Below are positions 4,464 through 54,907 of a stretch of DNA of 64,000 nucleotides, in pieces. Source of the DNA: Candidatus Saccharimonadota bacterium (GTDB lineage Bacteria > Patescibacteriota > Saccharimonadia > Saccharimonadales > Saccharimonadaceae). Below the pieces are notes generated by a model that saw only the letters and a list, made by a program, of their open reading frames with translations, did not search any database and was not told the origin of the DNA. Location of the stretch: NCBI GenBank assembly GCA_017431725.1, contig JAFRKN010000017.1, forward strand, positions 1 through 64,000. Direction: 5' to 3'. The translations under genes were made by a program, and so were the position numbers. Every line of letters starts with the position of its first letter. Within the stretch, counting starts at the first letter, position 1.

Positions 4464-5132
4464 ATGAAACCGACATTTTTTCAAAAACATCCTTTATGCA
4501 AAGATCTCCTCAGTTTAATTTCTTTTATTCTTGCCGTTATTCTTGGCACTTTATTTTTGAACACTTTTATTTATCGTTCCTATAACGTCGTTGGTGGCAG
4601 TATGGAAAACACCCTCCACGAAGATGATCGCGTTATCGTCAATCGCGCCGCCGTCTCTTGGTCGCACTTTTTGGGTCAAGAATATGTCCCTGAACGTGGC
4701 CAAATTATCGTCTTCTTAAACGAAGACGAAGCAAAAGTCAAAGAATATCAAGCCGCTGGTGTTTCTAATCCTGTTACCTGTACCATCCCTTCTAATATCA
4801 ACGATCAATACATCATCAAACGCGTCATTGCCTTTCCAGGCGAACGCGTCACCGTAAAAGACGGTATTATGACTATTTATAACGAAGAACACCCCGAAGG
4901 ATTTATTTACGACAACGATTGGCGCCTCTCCGAAACTGACGGGCCCAAAGAACACACCTCTGGTGAAGTTGATCTAACCGTCCCCACAGGAGAGCTTTTC
5001 GTCTCCGGCGACAATCGTGAAGGTTCCAATTCTTGGGACTCCCGTAACGGGCTTGGTACTATTCCTTATTGTCGCATCATCGGTCCAGTCGTCTTCCGTC
5101 TCTTCCCACTCGATAAAATCAGAACCTTCTGA
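4464..5132 (+). CDS. lepB: Signal peptidase I
   Basis: A 222-residue S26-family peptidase that cleaves signal peptides from exported proteins at the outer face of the membrane. One N-terminal membrane segment (about 15-38) is followed by the nucleophile Ser46 in GGSMENTL, the general base Lys119 in IIKRVIAFPGE, and the late family box SGDNREGSNSWDSRNGLG. The start is fixed by the -10 box 7 nt upstream. It ends in TGA, read here as stop, which argues against a UGA=Gly code. The clients are presumably the secreted proteins seen across this window. Confidence 0.96.
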   Translation: MKPTFFQKHPLCKDLLSLISFILAVILGTLFLNTFIYRSYNVVGGSMENTLHEDDRVIVNRAAVSWSHFLGQEYVPERGQIIVFLNEDEAKVKEYQAAGVSNPVTCTIPSNINDQYIIKRVIAFPGERVTVKDGIMTIYNEEHPEGFIYDNDWRLSETDGPKEHTSGEVDLTVPTGELFVSGDNREGSNSWDSRNGLGTIPYCRIIGPVVFRLFPLDKIRTF

Positions 5133-5137
5133 ATAAC

Positions 5138-5293
5138 AAGTTTTATGAATTCTCTTTTTAGCTCGCCTGAGGTGAAAATTTGAAAAAATAATTTGATGGA
5201 AGCCTTCCGGTATTTCAGTACCGGCTTTCCATCACTATTTTTTCAAATTTTCAGCCTTTTTATGGCAAGCTAAAAAGAGAATTCATAAAACTT
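5138..5293. terminator. 156-bp long hairpin between convergent lepB and rmuC
   Basis: The outer arms 5138-5163 and 5268-5293 are perfectly complementary over 26 bp and end inward in AGCT. Inside is an asymmetric bulge, then an inner imperfect stem (GAAAATTTGAAAAAATA pairing with its complement near 5240-5260, then GATGGAA-GCC with GGCTTTCCATC) and a small apical stem CCGGTA...TACCGG. It fills the gap between two convergent genes and may end both transcripts. It has the layout of the hairpins at 19.6 and 54.3 kb but a different core. Confidence 0.85.
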
Positions 5294-5294
5294 A

Positions 5295-6416
5295 CTAATC
5301 CGACACGTCTCCAATCAACTTTACTGATTCGGCTTCTGGCAATTCTTCCACGTCTTTTAGTTTTCGCTCAATCGAACGCGAAGTCGTTTTTGCCGACTCA
5401 ATTTTATTAGCTGATTCTTGTAATTTTTTCTGTACTCCCTCTAAAAGCTCCGAAAACTTTCCAAATTGTGTTTTTACGGCTCCTAAAGTTTGCCAAACTT
5501 CTGCCGAACGTTTTTCAATTGCCACTGTTCTAAAGCCCATCAAAAGCCCTGACAACATCACAGGAAGCGTTGAAGGTGAAGCCACTGTGATATTATATTT
5601 CTTCCTAATTTCATCCGAAAGTCCCGTAATCCTTATAATTTCTGCATACAAAGACTCCGTCGGTACAAACATAATGCCAAAATTCGTCGTTTTGGGCGGG
5701 TCAATATATTTTGTCGATATTTTTTTAGCCTGCTCTTTTACGTCATTCGCCAAAGCTTTTTGATAAGTAACAATATCTGTTTTATTACCATTATCGTAAG
5801 CCGCAATCAATCTAGAATAATTTTCCACCGGAAATTTAGAATCAATTGGCAAAAATACATCAGCCTCTTTTCCTGGCATTTTCACGGCAAATTCTACTCT
5901 ATCATTTGAGCCCTGCTTTGTGATAACATTTTCTTCATATTGCGATTTATTCAAAATATCTTCTATGATTGCTCCAAGCTGTACTTCACCATAAATCCCT
6001 CGTGTTTTTACGCCTTCCATCACTTTCTTTAAATCTCCTACTCCCGTCGCTAAGTTTTTCATCTCTCCAAGTCCTTGATAAACTTGTGTTAGTTGTGTAG
6101 AAATTGACTTAAAACTCTCATTAAATCGTTTTTCTACGCTAGCTTTCAACTTTTCATCCACCGTTTCTCGCATCTCTTCTAATTTCTTTTCATTTCCACT
6201 TTGCAATCGTTCTAAATTTTCTGCAATTTCTTTTCGATTTTCTCGGAAATTTCGATCTATCACTGGATTTATCTTCCCAACTTCTCCTTCTACTCGAATC
6301 AATCTTTCTTCTAATTGCTTATAATCTTGTGATTTTTGTGGCTTAGATACTTTATAAATCAAAAATCCTATCATCCCCACAATAATCACCCCCAAAACAC
6401 CTAAAAATATTTCCAT
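5295..6416 (-). CDS. rmuC: RmuC-family DNA recombination protein
   Basis: 373 residues: an N-terminal membrane helix (about 3-20), a long coiled coil (about 25-115), then the RmuC domain (about 120-345) with family-typical stretches such as RGIYGEVQLGAIIEDIL, FLPIDSKFPVENYSRL and NFGIMFVPTESLYAEI. RmuC proteins are thought to limit inversions between repeats and carry a PD-(D/E)XK-like nuclease fold; the biochemical role is not settled. The start is placed at the ATG at 6416, since a GTG at 6422 would lie 1 nt from TATAAT (6424-6429). With the ATG the -10 box is 7 nt away, giving a leaderless message. Confidence 0.9.
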   Translation of the reverse strand: MEIFLGVLGVIIVGMIGFLIYKVSKPQKSQDYKQLEERLIRVEGEVGKINPVIDRNFRENRKEIAENLERLQSGNEKKLEEMRETVDEKLKASVEKRFNESFKSISTQLTQVYQGLGEMKNLATGVGDLKKVMEGVKTRGIYGEVQLGAIIEDILNKSQYEENVITKQGSNDRVEFAVKMPGKEADVFLPIDSKFPVENYSRLIAAYDNGNKTDIVTYQKALANDVKEQAKKISTKYIDPPKTTNFGIMFVPTESLYAEIIRITGLSDEIRKKYNITVASPSTLPVMLSGLLMGFRTVAIEKRSAEVWQTLGAVKTQFGKFSELLEGVQKKLQESANKIESAKTTSRSIERKLKDVEELPEAESVKLIGDVSD

Positions 6417-6423
6417 AATCACA

Positions 6424-19584: not shown

Positions 19585-19595
19585 AATAAACTTTT

Positions 19596-19773
19596 AAGCA
19601 ACAAATCTTTTGCTTTTATTAGCATAATGAGATTTAGACCAGATTTGTTTGTTGTAATTATTACAACTTAACAATGAAAAAATATCCCGAGATTAGGGAT
19701 ATTTTTTCTTGACTTATGTTGCAATAATTACAACAAACAAGTCCAGCTAATAAAAGCAAAAGATTTGTTGCTT
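19596..19773. repeat. 178-bp long hairpin element, copy A, between the aquaporin gene and metG
   Basis: The outer arms 19596-19623 and 19746-19773 are perfectly complementary over 28 bp and specific to this locus. The core 19622-19747 begins GCATAATGAGATTTAGACC and ends AACAAGTCCAGC. Its first 67 bases are identical to the copy at 54.36 kb and the right side differs at only a few positions. The core holds its own imperfect stem (TTTGTTTGTTGTAATTATT with its complement) and an apical stem AAAAAATATCCC/GGGATATTTTTT. It separates two convergent genes. Confidence 0.9.
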
Positions 19774-19805
19774 AGCATAAATTTGTATTTTTTTGCTTTT
19801 ACTAT

Positions 19806-21221
19806 TTAACTCTTCGGAAACAATGGCATTTCCGGCGGCTCAATTTTGCCATCAAAAATCTTAGAAATCTTTTCTGCTGTCTCCGGGATAAACGGACTCA
19901 GCATATAATTAACATTTAATAACTCTAAAATCAAACTATTTAAACAATTTCTCAACTTCTCCACTTCGCCGTTTTTCGCCAAAACCCAAGGTTTGTCTTC
20001 GTCAATTTTTCGATTAATATTTTGAACTTTTACCCAAACATAATCAAATGCTTTCGAAAATTCAAAATTATCCATTAACTCCCGATATTCTACCGACATC
20101 TCTAATTGTGAATGTTTATCTAATTTCACACCATTTTTCGAAGCTAAAACCGCTAGCCTCTGCACTAAATTTCCTAAATCATTCGCAAGCTCATTATTAT
20201 AGGCGCTTTCAAACTTCTCCCACGTAAAATCCGAGTCCATAAAAGTATCAATGTGCCTTAAGAAATAATAACGAAACGCATCTAACCCATATTTATTTAA
20301 AACCTCCAAAGGATCAACTACATTCCCAATTGATTTTGACATCTTCTGTCCATCCGCCAAAATCATCCCGTGCGAAACTAAAACCTTAGGAAGCGGTAAA
20401 TCCAGCCCAATTAACATCGCCGGCCAAATAATTGCATGAAATCTCAAAATATCTTTTCCTACAAATTGTGCCGCCGCCGGCCACCACGCCGAAATTTCTT
20501 CTTCTGGATAACCTAAAACCGTAATATAATTAGACAATGCATCAATCCAAACATACATTACTTGATTCTCATCATCTGGCACCGTCACTCCCCAAGTTAA
20601 TTGTGACTTTGGTCGCGAAATCGAGACATCCGGAGAATCATCCAATAACTTTAAAATCTCATTCTTCCTAAACTCTGGCAATATCTTCATTTTTTCAGAG
20701 ACAATCGCCTCTTTTATTTCGTCCTTAAAATCCGCAATTCTTAAATAATAATTTTCTTCTTCTAATTTTTCATACGGTTTTTGATGATCCGGGCAAACTC
20801 CGTCATTTTCTTCATATTCTTTGTCGGTTACGAATCTTTCACATCCCGTACAATACCATCCCTCGTAATTTGCTAAATAAATATGGCTAGCTAATCGCCG
20901 CCAAATTTCCTGACATCTCCTCTCGTGTTCTTGATTCGTAGTCCTAATAAAATCTGTGTTAGAAATTCCTAATAATTTAATAAATTCTTTAAATTTTTCT
21001 GAATTTTTATCTACATATTCCTGCACTGGGATATTTAAATCCTCTGCCTTTTGAAAAATTTTATTGCCATGCTCATCCGTTCCCGCCTGAAAACGCACCT
21101 CATCTCCCAGCAATCTATAATACCGCGCACAAACATCCGCCAAACAATAATCCACCGCATGTCCAATATGCGGTTTACCATTCACATACGGTATCGCCGT
21201 CGTAACATATTTTTTTGTCAT
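19806..21221 (-). CDS. metG: Methionyl-tRNA synthetase
   Basis: 471 residues, class I. HIGH is at 18-21, KMSKS at 293-297, and a single zinc knuckle lies at about 124-147 (CTGCE ... VCPDH, the last ligand apparently His). The alpha-helical anticodon domain ends the protein. There is no C-terminal EMAPII-like dimer domain, so this is the short monomeric form. It starts 9 nt after the upstream 352-residue gene and is probably in its transcript. Met-tRNA made here serves initiation and elongation. Confidence 0.96.
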   Translation of the reverse strand: MTKKYVTTAIPYVNGKPHIGHAVDYCLADVCARYYRLLGDEVRFQAGTDEHGNKIFQKAEDLNIPVQEYVDKNSEKFKEFIKLLGISNTDFIRTTNQEHERRCQEIWRRLASHIYLANYEGWYCTGCERFVTDKEYEENDGVCPDHQKPYEKLEEENYYLRIADFKDEIKEAIVSEKMKILPEFRKNEILKLLDDSPDVSISRPKSQLTWGVTVPDDENQVMYVWIDALSNYITVLGYPEEEISAWWPAAAQFVGKDILRFHAIIWPAMLIGLDLPLPKVLVSHGMILADGQKMSKSIGNVVDPLEVLNKYGLDAFRYYFLRHIDTFMDSDFTWEKFESAYNNELANDLGNLVQRLAVLASKNGVKLDKHSQLEMSVEYRELMDNFEFSKAFDYVWVKVQNINRKIDEDKPWVLAKNGEVEKLRNCLNSLILELLNVNYMLSPFIPETAEKISKIFDGKIEPPEMPLFPKS

Positions 21222-49086: not shown

Positions 49087-52000
49087 TTATTTCTTCTCTA
49101 CACTCTTCCTTCTTATCGCCGAAAATATGACCATCATTCCACTCATGACGATTATCATGAATCCGCCAATCATACTATTCACGCCAGCATCATATGCTCC
49201 ACCATCTCGACTCGCATTTGTCAACTCACCCGTCTCTGGCGCTTCTACTGGAATTTTACCTCCACCACATCCCTCTCCACTTGCGCATGGATCGTCTAAT
49301 TCATGATAATTAACGAACAATGTGTAATATTCATCACTTTCTGTTTCGGTTTGTTCGTAATTATCAGATTCCAAAATTTCTTCTGCCGTATAGCTAATCA
49401 CTTCTGCATACTCATCCGCGTATGGCAATTCTTCCCAAACATAAATCCAAACATCTCCCGTCGCATATTCCTCGTTTTCTTCATCTATAATTACTGCATC
49501 TTTTATTGATAGATTAACAGTCTCAATCACTTCTCCATTCGCTAAAAGGTTAACCGTCAAGTTCTCTGGTCGCCTACCATCATAATCGTGTTCATCATCC
49601 CAAATTTTTACCACACTATACGAAATCTTTTCCACTTCATATTCGTTTGTAATCTCAAACACTGCTTTTTCATCTTTAGCAACTTCTTTCTCCACATTAT
49701 TATCACCCGAAACCGTCAGTTCAAAGTTTTCCACATCCGCATTATTCTCCGTCACGGTATACTTGCCAGTTGGCACCTTGCCGTCCACTTTACAAATAAT
49801 AATTTCGTCAGAAATCTGACAATCTTCACTCACTTTCAAAGTCATCTTACCATCTTCACCAAAGTCCTCCGGCCCTTCAATTGTAAACTCCAAATCAGCC
49901 AAAACCTCTGCCGACAACCCTTTCACAGTCTTTTGAATTGTAAATGATTTTGCCATACTACGATTATTCACCACAGTCAAAGTTAAATCTTCTTCATCCC
50001 ATGTAAACGCCTTGTCTCCTTCCCCACTAAACGTACAGGTCTTCGTATAAGTATTAACTAAGTTATCGGTATCTCTATCAGTAAGTTCACTAGTACAACT
50101 AATTGTTACTGTTGCCGAACCATCTACTAAATCATAACCTTCCTTAGCTTCTTTCTCGCTAATTACATATTCAAAACTCTCTTCTTTCCCATCTTTTGAA
50201 ATCGGCACAGTAATAGTAATCTCACCATTCTCATTAGTAGTTTTATCGCTATGACCTTCCACCGCAAACACTACATCTGAAAGTGGTTTATAATCCTCAT
50301 CAACTTTCTTAATTGTAAATTGCGTATCGCCTTCATATACAACCTTGTCTTCAGCTTCTTTCCAAGTGTTGGTCACTTCAAACTTTTCATTATCTTCGCT
50401 CTTGGTCCAGCTACCAACAATTGCATCATTATCAGCATAAATGATAATTGTGCTCTCATTTTCACCAAACCTAGTTCCGCCAAGCTCGGATTCTTGCACC
50501 GAATATACAATTGGTTCACCATCCTCATTTAAATACAAATTTTCAAAGGTATGCTTCCACCCATCTGCTGCCGAGATTGGTACTGGATTACCTAGTCTCA
50601 CACCATTAGCATAAAGTTCAATCATAATCGTTTCTGGTCTAGCTAATTCATTATTTCCATCATTCCAAATCTTCTGAACGGTCAAATCACCATATAACGC
50701 CGGTTCATGGAAGTTAGTAACTACACCATTTGCGATAGTCACAGTATAATCCTCATCGCCATCAAATTCAGTACACTGAATCGAATTGCCACTACCGCTA
50801 CACTCTGAAGCTTCTACTACCTCATACGTAATATCTTCACCATCTACAGTCTTTAGTGGCAAATGCGTAAACTCGTAATTATCCTTATCTTCAAGCACCA
50901 ATTTTTGATAACCTACATACTTACCACTATTATTCTTTACTGCTATATAATAATTCACATAATTCTTCCTTAGACCATCACGATCATCACCATCATCCCA
51001 AACCTTAGCGACAGTAATATCACTATATGGAATAGGTTCATTTTTGACTGTAAATGTGCGGCTTTCAGTATTATATTCATATCCATCTACTTGTGAAGTA
51101 CTAAACGAAAAGACGTATTCATAGATGTTCTTAAGATTTTCGAGATCAACAGTATTAAGTTTTTTAATACTGGTAATATTAATATTTGGCTCAGTAGAAA
51201 TCTTTTTGTAACCTTCTGGCGCATCAGTTTCTTTAAGCGTATATTCACCAGCATCCAAATTATCAAAGGTGGCTTCACCATCATCATTAGTAGTTGCCGT
51301 AACAGCAGCACCATTCTTGAGTTTAAGTTCAAAAGTTGCACCCGAAAGCGGTTTGTTAGTAGTTTTATCAACCTTCACAATATTAAAGCTGGTTTTACCG
51401 GTAACGCTTTCAGTAGCTGGCGTCCAGGTATTTTTAACAATGAAGTCCTCAAGAGTCATGACCGTCCATTTACCTACAACGGCATGCTTGCCATTATTTT
51501 CTTCGGAATCATATTCAAAGAAAGCTTCTAGCTCATCGTTGTAAGTAGCGCCCTCAATCGCGCTTTCTTCTATTGAGTAAATAATTTCCACGCCATTATC
51601 ATACTTCGGAAGATCAGTAAATGAACCCTTCCAATCAGTATCGGCAGTAATTTTTTTGGTTTGACCAGTAGAAACTACTTTACCATCAGCGCCTTTCTTA
51701 AAGAGCTCAATCGTAATACTGCCAGGAAGTTCTTCGCCACTTAAGACATTACCGCTCGCATCATACCAAGTCTTCTCGAATTCAACCTTAGTCTTCTCAT
51801 CAAGGAACTTATTGATGACAGTAGCACTCGAAGCTGTGTTACCAGACACAACATAATAACCATCTTCTGTTTGAGTAGCGTTAGTCGGTTCTTCAGTCCC
51901 ATATGCTTCTTTATAGGTAATAGTAGGGTTTGCGGCATATCCATCTTTTTCGGTTTCCTCGACATAATATTGAACACCAGAATCTACGTTAACAATACGA

Positions 52001-54240
52001 ATAACATCTCCAAGATATAAAGTTACATCTTCAATATCACCAGTTCCGCAAATGTGTTCAGAACGACTATATTTAACAGAACCATCGTCATTATATACAA
52101 TATGTGATTCATATTCTGGGTTTTTCTCGCCATAATAAATACGATAATCATATTTATAAGCTTTTCCATCAGCATCAATAAGATGAGCGGTGATTTCAAA
52201 CGAATCGTCAGTGTCAATCTCGTTGCCACTTTTATCTATAACCTTCTTCTGAATATTGATACCACCTTTCAATGTGTTCGTAGCAGAAACGGATTCCATC
52301 ACTCTAAATTCTTCGATACCAGTAATATTATCGGACTCGTCACGAGTAAAGAATACGTTCATTAACACATTATCCACTATCATCGGATGATAAATATAAT
52401 TTGTTAATTCGAAGTGATTATTGATGTCCTCCTCTTCAAAGTAATAATCGTGACCAGTTTCAAGAATAATATAAGTCTTACCACCAAAAGAATACTCGGT
52501 GTGACCAGCTTTCAAAAGATTATAATTCGGGGAATCATTACTAATCATGATGCCTGGCGCAATAGAAATATAATCATTTAGCTTCCAATTGTTACTTTCA
52601 GTCAAATGAATATCTTGTTCATATATATCATCGTCTTTATAGAAGTTAAGCACAACTTCGCCGTTAACTTCTTCACGCTGTGATGGATCCAAAGAATCCT
52701 CCCACTTTTTCTCAAGAGTAAGTTTTTCAGTCAGGAGAGGCATCGGTCCATCATTTTTAATCTCAATAGTAGTTGGGTCAGAAATAGTAGTTGTTGGCAC
52801 ACCATTTACAGTTACAGTCTCAACCGTTGAATATGTAAGTGTTGGCCACTCAGTATTAGTTTGTAGGCTATAACTATCTCCATCTTTTACAATAGACGCC
52901 TTTTGCGCATCAGTTAAGCTATCGTATGTAATTCTGCCATTATTAAGATCGGCAAGTAAATCATAAGATTCTTGAGATGGCCAAACAGTAAACGAAACGG
53001 TTGCAGTTTCACCATCTTTAAGAGTAGTATCACCAAGATCCCAAATTACAGTCTTCACACCATCAACAGTCTTAATTTCAGCCTCTGGTGCATCAGCCCA
53101 AGCAGTACCACTCTTAGTATAAGTGAAATTGTCTGGGTTACCACTTACGGCAGCAGTAGTTAATGCGGTGATACCATCAGTAAACTTAACATTAGTCAAA
53201 GAAAGTGCATTGGTAATTTGATCAACTATTTGTTTAAAAGCATCTTCCAGTGCTTGCTGGTTAGAAGCATCATAATAATTATCGGAACCAGCGAGATTTT
53301 GCATTGCAACCGCATCGCCAAAAGCACCAACGGTATATAGTGTGGTATTAGATAATCCAGCGATAGAATCAGCTACAGCCTTAGCAGCATTAAAATTCCA
53401 GCTGTTTGGATCAGAATTACCGGTGCCCCATTTATTTGCAGTGCCATTCCAGTCACTGCCATAAGAACCAGCATTATTTGAACCCATCTGAGAATCACGG
53501 AAAGTTGGGTTACCATCGGAAACAAAAATCACATAATTAGACTCTTCCGGTTGAGAACTAATACGATTACTAACGAGAGTTTTAGAGGATGAAAGGGCAG
53601 TTTCCCAGTTGGTTCCACCTTGTATATTATTTGGCACGCTATAACCGTTAACTGCATTATTTAAAACTGTTTCACTAGTACTCCAGTTAGTAGTGCTTCT
53701 AACGCTGGTAGCAAAGTTAACGAGAGCAATTTCAACGGTGTCACTATCGGCACCTTCAAGATTATTGTTAGCGAGGAGAGTTGAAATAAGGTTAGTAGTT
53801 GCATTTTTGGCAACAGTAAGGCGATCAGATGTACATCTATAGTGGTCGCCATTATATTCGGTTCCATTTGACCCATAACGCCAAGCACGATTTTGGCGAT
53901 ACAAAGGAACGAAGTCTCCCCCTACAAGACCATATTGACCGGTGCTGTTATTATCATAGTTATTATTAAGCGTACAACCCGTGCCATATTCCATCGAATT
54001 CGATGTATCAAATACAACAACGACATTGGCTTTTGAGACTGAAGTCTCAGAACTCTGTTTACCAGTGACACTTAAAGTAACATTGTAAGTTCCGTCACCA
54101 TTTGGTGTTACAGTTTTTGAATGTTGTGGGACATCGCCCGCTGGTTCTTCCGCATAAGCGTTCAAAAACGGTACCGGTACCGAGCCGAAAACCATTACGA
54201 CCGTTGCGAAAATATTAAATATTTTGCGCTTTAAATTCAT
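49087..54240 (-). CDS. 1717-residue VWA / Cna-B repeat adhesin with PETG wall-anchor-like end
   Basis: Signal peptide (about 1-31). A von Willebrand A domain (about 65-345) has the MIDAS motif DTSNSMEYG. Then come at least seven Cna-B/SpaA-type beta modules, for example FEKTWYDASG, VAKVWDDGDDRDG, VQKIWNDGNN, VVKIWDDEHDYDGRRPENL and KVDKTTNKPLSGATFELK with APEGYK. The C-terminus has APETGEL, a hydrophobic segment and RRKSVEKK, matching a variant sortase signal. Lys/Asn/Glu isopeptide crosslinks are likely but not proven. Such proteins act as pilin tips or adhesins. A TATAAT box and AAGGAG precede the ATG. It is transcribed apart from the ribosomal genes behind it. Confidence 0.92.
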   Translation of the reverse strand: MNLKRKIFNIFATVVMVFGSVPVPFLNAYAEEPAGDVPQHSKTVTPNGDGTYNVTLSVTGKQSSETSVSKANVVVVFDTSNSMEYGTGCTLNNNYDNNSTGQYGLVGGDFVPLYRQNRAWRYGSNGTEYNGDHYRCTSDRLTVAKNATTNLISTLLANNNLEGADSDTVEIALVNFATSVRSTTNWSTSETVLNNAVNGYSVPNNIQGGTNWETALSSSKTLVSNRISSQPEESNYVIFVSDGNPTFRDSQMGSNNAGSYGSDWNGTANKWGTGNSDPNSWNFNAAKAVADSIAGLSNTTLYTVGAFGDAVAMQNLAGSDNYYDASNQQALEDAFKQIVDQITNALSLTNVKFTDGITALTTAAVSGNPDNFTYTKSGTAWADAPEAEIKTVDGVKTVIWDLGDTTLKDGETATVSFTVWPSQESYDLLADLNNGRITYDSLTDAQKASIVKDGDSYSLQTNTEWPTLTYSTVETVTVNGVPTTTISDPTTIEIKNDGPMPLLTEKLTLEKKWEDSLDPSQREEVNGEVVLNFYKDDDIYEQDIHLTESNNWKLNDYISIAPGIMISNDSPNYNLLKAGHTEYSFGGKTYIILETGHDYYFEEEDINNHFELTNYIYHPMIVDNVLMNVFFTRDESDNITGIEEFRVMESVSATNTLKGGINIQKKVIDKSGNEIDTDDSFEITAHLIDADGKAYKYDYRIYYGEKNPEYESHIVYNDDGSVKYSRSEHICGTGDIEDVTLYLGDVIRIVNVDSGVQYYVEETEKDGYAANPTITYKEAYGTEEPTNATQTEDGYYVVSGNTASSATVINKFLDEKTKVEFEKTWYDASGNVLSGEELPGSITIELFKKGADGKVVSTGQTKKITADTDWKGSFTDLPKYDNGVEIIYSIEESAIEGATYNDELEAFFEYDSEENNGKHAVVGKWTVMTLEDFIVKNTWTPATESVTGKTSFNIVKVDKTTNKPLSGATFELKLKNGAAVTATTNDDGEATFDNLDAGEYTLKETDAPEGYKKISTEPNINITSIKKLNTVDLENLKNIYEYVFSFSTSQVDGYEYNTESRTFTVKNEPIPYSDITVAKVWDDGDDRDGLRKNYVNYYIAVKNNSGKYVGYQKLVLEDKDNYEFTHLPLKTVDGEDITYEVVEASECSGSGNSIQCTEFDGDEDYTVTIANGVVTNFHEPALYGDLTVQKIWNDGNNELARPETIMIELYANGVRLGNPVPISAADGWKHTFENLYLNEDGEPIVYSVQESELGGTRFGENESTIIIYADNDAIVGSWTKSEDNEKFEVTNTWKEAEDKVVYEGDTQFTIKKVDEDYKPLSDVVFAVEGHSDKTTNENGEITITVPISKDGKEESFEYVISEKEAKEGYDLVDGSATVTISCTSELTDRDTDNLVNTYTKTCTFSGEGDKAFTWDEEDLTLTVVNNRSMAKSFTIQKTVKGLSAEVLADLEFTIEGPEDFGEDGKMTLKVSEDCQISDEIIICKVDGKVPTGKYTVTENNADVENFELTVSGDNNVEKEVAKDEKAVFEITNEYEVEKISYSVVKIWDDEHDYDGRRPENLTVNLLANGEVIETVNLSIKDAVIIDEENEEYATGDVWIYVWEELPYADEYAEVISYTAEEILESDNYEQTETESDEYYTLFVNYHELDDPCASGEGCGGGKIPVEAPETGELTNASRDGGAYDAGVNSMIGGFMIIVMSGMMVIFSAIRRKSVEKK

Positions 54241-54340
54241 GTATATACTCCTTCGCTACTAGTATTGCCGCCATTATATCACACTTGTCAAGTAGCAGCA
54301 ACGATAAGCGTTTTGATGATAAAAATTACAAAAACGGTAA

Positions 54341-54505
54341 GACTAAGGGCCTTTGAGAGCATAATGAGATTTAGACCAGATTTGTTTGTTGTAATTATTA
54401 CAACTTAACAATGAAAAAATATCCCTAAAATAATAAGGATATTTTTTCTTGACTTATGTTGTAAAAATTACATCAAACAAGTCCAGCTCTCAAAGGCCCT
54501 TAATC
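54341..54505. repeat. 165-bp long hairpin element, copy B, directly after rpsH
   Basis: The outer arms 54341-54360 and 54486-54505 match over 20 bp with one mismatch (17 bp perfect) and share nothing with the arms of copy A. The core 54359-54487 starts with the same 67 bases as copy A (19622 on) and ends with the same AACAAGTCCAGC. The right arm touches the rpsH stop codon at 54506. It probably ends ribosomal transcription. The remaining 54241-54340 carries the adhesin promoter (TTGCTG-17-TATAAT near 54260-54290) and nothing else that I can see. Confidence 0.9.
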
Positions 54506-54907
54506 TTACCAAACTTTTACTAAGATCTCACCACCCAAACGATTTTTCTTGGCTTCTCGTCCAGTCATTAGACCTTTAGAAGTAGATACGATAATCATTC
54601 CTCGTCCAGACTTCACGACAGGCAAATCATCCGCCGAAGAATAAACTCTTCGACCTGGTTTTGAAACCTTATCAATTTCATTAATCTTGGCATTCATCCC
54701 AGACTCATTGATCACTACCTTAAGCATTCCGCGTGGAGTCCCATCAATTACCTCAAAGCCCGCAATATAACCATTCTTTGCTAAAACTTCCACTAAGCTC
54801 CGCTTTAATCTAGAAGTCGGGACTAGAATTTCATTTTTCGAAACCTTTATCGCATTGCGAATGCGTGTAATAAGGTCTGCAATTTGATCAGTAGATTGTA
54901 ATGACAT
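54506..54907 (-). CDS. rpsH: Ribosomal protein S8
   Basis: 133 residues. QIADLITRIRNAIKVSK at the start and GRGMIIVSTSKGLMTGREAKK with GGEILVKVW at the end are the S8 signatures. It binds the central domain of 16S rRNA and in other bacteria represses the spc operon by binding its mRNA. Here it is the last gene of the upstream ribosomal block; rplF, normally next, is about 22 kb away. Confidence 0.97.
   Translation of the reverse strand: MSLQSTDQIADLITRIRNAIKVSKNEILVPTSRLKRSLVEVLAKNGYIAGFEVIDGTPRGMLKVVINESGMNAKINEIDKVSKPGRRVYSSADDLPVVKSGRGMIIVSTSKGLMTGREAKKNRLGGEILVKVW

Follow-up and report, generated by a model that had tools for sequence, protein, structure and literature searches.

How can a repeat keep its centre from copy to copy while its outer arms pair with each other at every locus but are unrelated between loci? 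Two hairpins in the window, the whole 64,000-nt stretch of a Candidatus Saccharimonadota contig analysed here, raise this question. Hairpins of this kind, with repeated cores and their own arms of ~25 bp that resemble inverted copies of the adjacent host DNA, occur by the dozen at gene ends in small gut Saccharibacteria, with no identifiable mobile element of matching design. We read them as non-autonomous hairpin-core repeats in terminator position whose arms may be produced by fold-back copying of flanking DNA, an interpretation to which we assign a probability of roughly 50%.

Core families in the window and its genome

Copy 1 of the shared core family (family A; all its parts are given on the plus strand) has a left arm at 19,595–19,623 that is complementary at 29 of 29 positions to the right arm at 19,746–19,774, and 122 nt of core between them (19,624–19,745). 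Judged by sequence and by covariation across 32 copies, this core comprises the ATAATGAGATTTAGACCA bulge, a GATTTG..CAAGTC stem with a U-G wobble, the inner stem ATATCCC/GGGATAT and the end AAGTCCA. Copy 2 has arms of 25 bp with one mismatch (54,336–54,360 and 54,486–54,510, plus strand) and 125 nt between them (54,361–54,485), a core 92% identical to that of copy 1. The outer GGTAA of its left arm mirrors the stop region of the ribosomal protein S8 gene, and its right arm holds the S8 stop codon (TTA at 54,506–54,508). From AGC inward, 68 left-side bases are identical in the two copies, whereas their left arms match at only 10 of 25 positions in an ungapped comparison. A conserved core with locus-specific, self-complementary arms at both hairpins, as stated in the original prediction, was thereby confirmed; the perfect and one-mismatch pairing and the identical bases it described also held, with lengths of 29 and 25 bp in place of 28 and 20 bp and a count of 68 in place of 67. 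It was likewise right that no transposase lies nearby and that simple duplication does not account for the pair.

In the window, the 23-mer AGCATAATGAGATTTAGACCAGA has exactly two occurrences, against an expectation of none from shuffles, and both hairpins fold far better than shuffled sequence (z-scores of -16.4 for copy 1 as RNA and -13.4 for copy 2 as DNA; no shuffle folded equally well). An aquaporin-type gene (MIP, PF00230; 18,664–19,584, plus strand) and, by eye, a methionyl-tRNA synthetase-like gene (19,806–21,221, minus strand) converge on copy 1, their stops lying 39 and 60 bp from the core, respectively. The S8 gene (PF00410, E=3.7e-39; 54,506–54,907, minus strand) has its 3' end inside the right arm of copy 2. 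The neighbour on the other side, at 49,087–54,240, encodes a 1,717-aa minus-strand protein with the look, by eye, of a cell-wall-anchored surface adhesin.

Family A turned out to be one of several. In the window's genome, of whose 752,068 bases we read 742,879, we found 40 inverted repeats with a stem score of at least 16 and a loop of at least 30, against 0 after codon-block shuffling of the entire sequence. They reduce to 30 outermost hairpins, among which six or more core families are represented repeatedly: family A by 3 copies, B by 3, C by about 6, E by 5, F by 3 and G by 3, with median arm lengths of 21–26 bp per family; the few unclassified hairpins may be something else. The original prediction had thus described two real copies of one family and missed that this arm design is found with six or more unrelated core families, of which family E is also present in the window. 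Its five genomic copies occur in both orientations. The window copy has its left arm at 5,138–5,167, starting 6 bp past the stop of the gene at 4,464–5,132, its core (TGAGGTGAAAATTTGAAAAAATA...TATTTTTTCAAATTTTCAGCCTTTTTAT) at 5,168–5,263 and its right arm at 5,264–5,293 (all plus strand), which finishes 2 bp short of the stop codon belonging to the minus-strand gene at 5,295–6,422; the stem scores 27 over 30 bp with one mismatch. By eye, these genes are signal-peptidase-like and RmuC-like, and the hairpin lies exactly between their stops; RmuC has been credited with restricting inversion between short inverted repeats. Family F has GATTT facing RGACTT in common with family A, and the family C pattern was found in 0 of the genomes drawn from outside the genus.

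Family A across one Saccharibacteria genus

Searching the genome and its relatives for the core, as had been proposed, yielded a third family A copy on contig 14 of the window's genome and, among 174 genomes of one Saccharibacteria genus, matches in 90. Among 84,980 species searched, the motif ATAATGAGATTTAGACCAGAT was confined to Saccharibacteria of ruminant and other hosts, including Nanosyncoccus alces, apart from one rumen bacterium record without stated lineage and one contig labelled Methanobrevibacter (JAFRFB010000086.1), which is 99.8% identical to a Saccharibacteria contig and hence misbinned. We rejected a wider taxonomic spread on this basis, and a viral origin because a 21-base family A motif was present in 0 viral contigs.

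Each of the full-length copies inspected first had its own self-complementary flanks. Across 124 parsed copies, for which the filter included a minimum arm score, the median arm length was 26 bp, with 22–29 bp in 93 of the 124; arms were also present in partial matches taken without that filter. Left and right arms pair in 95–98% of cases at most positions up to about 20 and in at least 82% up to position 25, followed by 64%, 60%, 52%, 44% and 42% at positions 26–30, approaching background by 28–30. With shuffled partners, pairing was 25–50% at most positions and higher at a conserved T-run and AGC. Family A arms favour AGC at positions 1–3 and a T-run at 7–11, with an A-tract at 16–20; family C has the T-run and (GAA/TCA)GC in fixed form. 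What is truly specific to a locus is therefore approximately the stretch from position 12 to 26. Core and arm length are uncorrelated (rho 0.02), so that we rejected a limit on total hairpin length. Many of the genomes are metagenome bins, and short-read assembly can produce false palindromes; this is not the explanation here, since independent assemblies have nearly identical arms (L304/L061, G145/G134 and G034/G095).

The layout of family A is [arm]-C|ATAATGAGATTTAGACCA-(GATTTG ... inner stems ... CAAGTC)-C plus 0–3 nt-|G-[arm'], with an 18-nt bulge that is almost invariant. For 32 copies, in an alignment that includes the arms, RNAalifold predicted 66 pairs, 48 of them with double-sided changes. 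Of the 32 copies, 31 retain the U-G wobble (alignment columns 47/166), and arm mismatches are more often G-U than A-C (45 versus 22; p=0.007, with copies that are not independent). From the wobble and the G-U excess we read the core plus strand, as RNA or single-stranded DNA, as the probable folded form. Fetched copies had cores of 73–200 nt and no coding version; an autonomous long version was rejected, partial matches being short cores or truncations, as was a conserved peptide (ATG AGA TTT AGA CCA...), since its frame is broken past the bulge in many copies.

Cores are more alike within genomes (0.82) than within sites (0.74) or with neither in common (0.69), a ranking that fits spread inside genomes. 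Genome G138 has four cores that are 97–98% identical with unrelated arms, one arm pair of 38 bp running into a reading frame; judged from these cores, this is recent spread. Several copies have unusual structures. The cores of L051 and L055 contain a further GC-rich or long hairpin in the apical loop, that is, hairpins nested in loops, and L045 (1934–2126 in minus-strand coordinates, genome G151) is a tandem partial duplication of the element including the left arm, with one half decayed.

Gene ends and the origin of the arms

Copies sit at the ends of genes: 49 of 94 are flanked by convergent genes, and the closest stop codon typically falls within the arm, 12–30 bp from the core. The stop codon of a neighbouring gene lies inside an arm in 60 of 124 copies. 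Seventeen copies have stops in both arms, equidistant in 10. Sites recur across species with the core in either orientation, which is free relative to the genes; both orientations at one site could reflect either repeated insertion or core inversion. Orthologous sites without the core have ordinary short terminators directly 3' of the stop codon or a hairpin of another family (G095 and G004 at L151, G134 at L109). The hairpin position and the A/T-tract pattern fit an intrinsic terminator; in several copies the right arm is followed by no U-tract. At L110 (G108) an extra TATAATGAGATTTAGACCA directly outside the left arm is perhaps the trace of an earlier event.

Comparison with sister genomes at L074 gave the clearest view of how arms arise. 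In sisters G145, G134 and G146 the site has the terminator AAAAAATAACCCC..GGGGTTATTTTTT, and GCACAAGAATAAATT (antisense) occurs only as the end of the right gene. In G030 the terminator is lost, the right arm keeps CAAGAATAAATT and the left arm has GCACAAGAATAAATT, which, inverted, supplies the last codons of the left gene and alters its C-terminus. The sister genomes show one arm to be ancestral gene-end sequence and the other its inverted copy, at this sole clear site. Comparing sites with and without the core, as had been suggested, therefore resolved arm ancestry at L074 and did not settle it at L080 and L084. At the S8 site, TTACC is conserved in relatives and the far-side GGTAA is present in the two copy-bearing genomes, G000 (the window's genome) and G013; at L100/L109 a conserved gene end runs on into the outer left arm. 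In contrast, neither arm of L077 in G146 matches the flanks of sister genomes, and the arms of L151 in G034 are new relative to G095 and match neither flank, so that arms must also change fast or be acquired by recombination from relatives outside the sample.

Under fold-back copying, the simplest account, the core plus strand would fold and bring the 3' end of the hairpin beside the 5' flank. DNA synthesis could then snap back over the junction, copying ~25 nt of one flank, counted from the ..GC|AT.. boundary, in inverted form to the other side. Such a step would yield locus-specific, near-perfect arms, overwrite the old terminator and sometimes hand a convergent neighbour gene a mirror-image stop codon. 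Copying might take place at core insertion, or afterwards via replication template switching. The data show the spread of the core, the length and pairing of the arms, the sites and, at one locus, inverted-copy ancestry; from these we infer the snap-back step and the general copying direction. Inverted copying of flanking DNA was one of two routes in the original prediction and is the better fit, clearly so at one site, with post-insertion template switching also possible. Template switching is a known route to making and keeping perfect stems (PMC8794818) and has been proposed to explain nematomorph palindromes (PMC6649704). Since template-switch events vary widely in length, the ~25-bp limit needs an extra cause, and its occurrence with unrelated cores hints at dedicated machinery or a selected size.

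The arms might instead be the selected functional stem of a special terminator or 3'-end RNA, with ~25 bp kept by compensatory substitutions around a core that is a conserved internal structure, an explanation we place on the unlikely side. It would account for the position at gene 3' ends, where terminators are replaced, for the A-tract and T-tract in the arms, and for the G-U excess and retained wobble, both expected if the plus strand folds. Three orthologous pairs (L087/L102, L100/L109 and L147/L114) show coordinated change in both arms, which speaks against fold-back copying insofar as selection on a functional stem predicts it too. However, selection on a stem sits poorly with the free orientation of the core, with arms of up to 38 bp that run into coding sequence, with relatives' terminators that work at the same sites with far shorter stems, with the unrelated, near-perfect arms around near-identical cores of one genome, and with the decay of arm pairing in L093/L098, a pair only 5% diverged.

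The other route originally proposed, in which the core inserts into the loop of a pre-existing terminator hairpin and the arms are old terminator stems, is disfavoured and in our view quite unlikely. Orthologous sites without the core do have terminators at the same position, and sisters at L080 have a loopless palindrome, CGAATAATTATTCG, but the latter may equally well be a deletion scar, the short terminators of the sisters are unrelated to the arms, and a ~25-bp limit common to unrelated cores would be unexpected. Moreover, the window's genome has only 12 short-loop inverted repeats with a stem score of at least 16; long stems are a feature of these elements, and the arms are therefore more than leftovers of old terminators. 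Spread of whole units by homologous recombination or ordinary duplication, with arms diverging later, is untenable as the main route and the least probable of these explanations, because arms are unlikely to diverge as far as those of the G138 copies while the core stays unchanged. Whole-unit transfer does seem to have happened at single sites: arms and cores of L064/L073 and L070/L071 are 96–100% identical and their flanks about 80–90%, consistent with recent locus transfer. Arms common to many copies had been named as a sign against the element; arms are locus-specific in general, an exception being genome G014, whose five near-identical short copies (L037–L041) have arms and some flank in common and hence belong to a larger repeat.

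Fold-back copying leaves the movement of the cores to be explained. We consider it possible, though doubtful, that the families form one mobile hairpin class with a shared putative machinery that would recognise the folded core and the GC|AT boundary, insert at terminators and duplicate a fixed ~25-bp target in inverted rather than direct orientation. In the window's genome, neither a Y1 transposase, nor a link to reverse transcriptase, nor an extra tyrosine recombinase explains movement. A Y1 transposase or an extra tyrosine recombinase acting in trans, along the lines originally suggested, found no backing: PF01797 (Y1, RAYT) had 0 matches in this genome, with a control that was positive in 6 of 14 genomes, and the only two Phage_integrase proteins (319–320 aa) are presumably XerC and XerD. 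Dependence on reverse transcriptase was rejected, as near-complete genomes with family A (G005, G031, G057, G095 and G096) lack an RVT_1 match. The window's genome itself has two reverse transcriptases, one among phage-like genes (L380:7117–8307) and one 3' of a short ORF resembling the end of a variable protein (L379:1280–2410), which makes diversity-generating retroelements probable. SbcD, part of a nuclease that cuts long DNA hairpins, had no match in this one genome with one model (control positive in 13 of 14 genomes); its absence may let long hairpins persist.

Comparison with known systems

A search of the open-access literature returned no description of this hairpin design, and Rfam, run on 138,612 bases including copies of families A, B, C, E, F and G, gave only tRNAs above the gathering threshold and sub-threshold matches at copy 1. 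Copies of MITEs, REP/REPIN sequences and Rickettsia palindromic elements share conserved terminal sequences; MITEs and REPINs rely on an IS or RAYT transposase for their mobility, and target duplications, where present, are direct, not inverted. The hairpins resemble these elements in being small, non-autonomous, palindromic intergenic repeats (PMC10969869, PMC3116915). Their flanks are inverted copies. They differ from MITEs in that outer arms vary per locus, with only the inner GC|AT boundary and the core in common; from REP/REPIN systems in that their genome has no Y1 (RAYT) match; from retron or DGR-type retroelements, which require a reverse transcriptase, in their independence of one; and from integron attC or tyrosine-recombinase sites in that no dedicated integrase was found in the window's genome.

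Sponge and fungal mitochondrial genomes contain small dispersed hairpins, termed repetitive hairpin-forming and double-hairpin elements, also in several families and with no known transposase; there the stems themselves are reported to be conserved between copies, and the available part of the source describes no locus-specific arms (PMC2800124). Coding palindromes of nematomorph mitochondria are likewise long perfect inverted repeats that extend into coding sequence, and arm conversion apparently maintains their perfection, but they have no common core, lie within organelle genes and have a mean repeat of 43 bp (PMC6649704). Closest in outcome to the process suggested here, template-switch mutation at quasipalindromes produces perfect inverted arms in one event, homogenises arms and can invert the spacer; it is, however, a mutation process and not an element, with no repeated core spreading between loci, and the accessible portions of these papers report no length limit near 25 bp (PMC8794818, PMC7202029, PMC8604942).

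Should the interpretation hold, the long-standing question of the origin and upkeep of long perfect stems could be put to direct test in a bacterium. The hairpins also show that such events rewrite gene ends in host-associated Saccharibacteria, affecting stop codons, C-termini and terminators. Known transposition leaves direct target duplications or none; inverted surroundings of ~25 bp framing each copy, around six or more unrelated cores within a single reduced genome, imply either an undescribed insertion chemistry or very efficient core-driven template switching.
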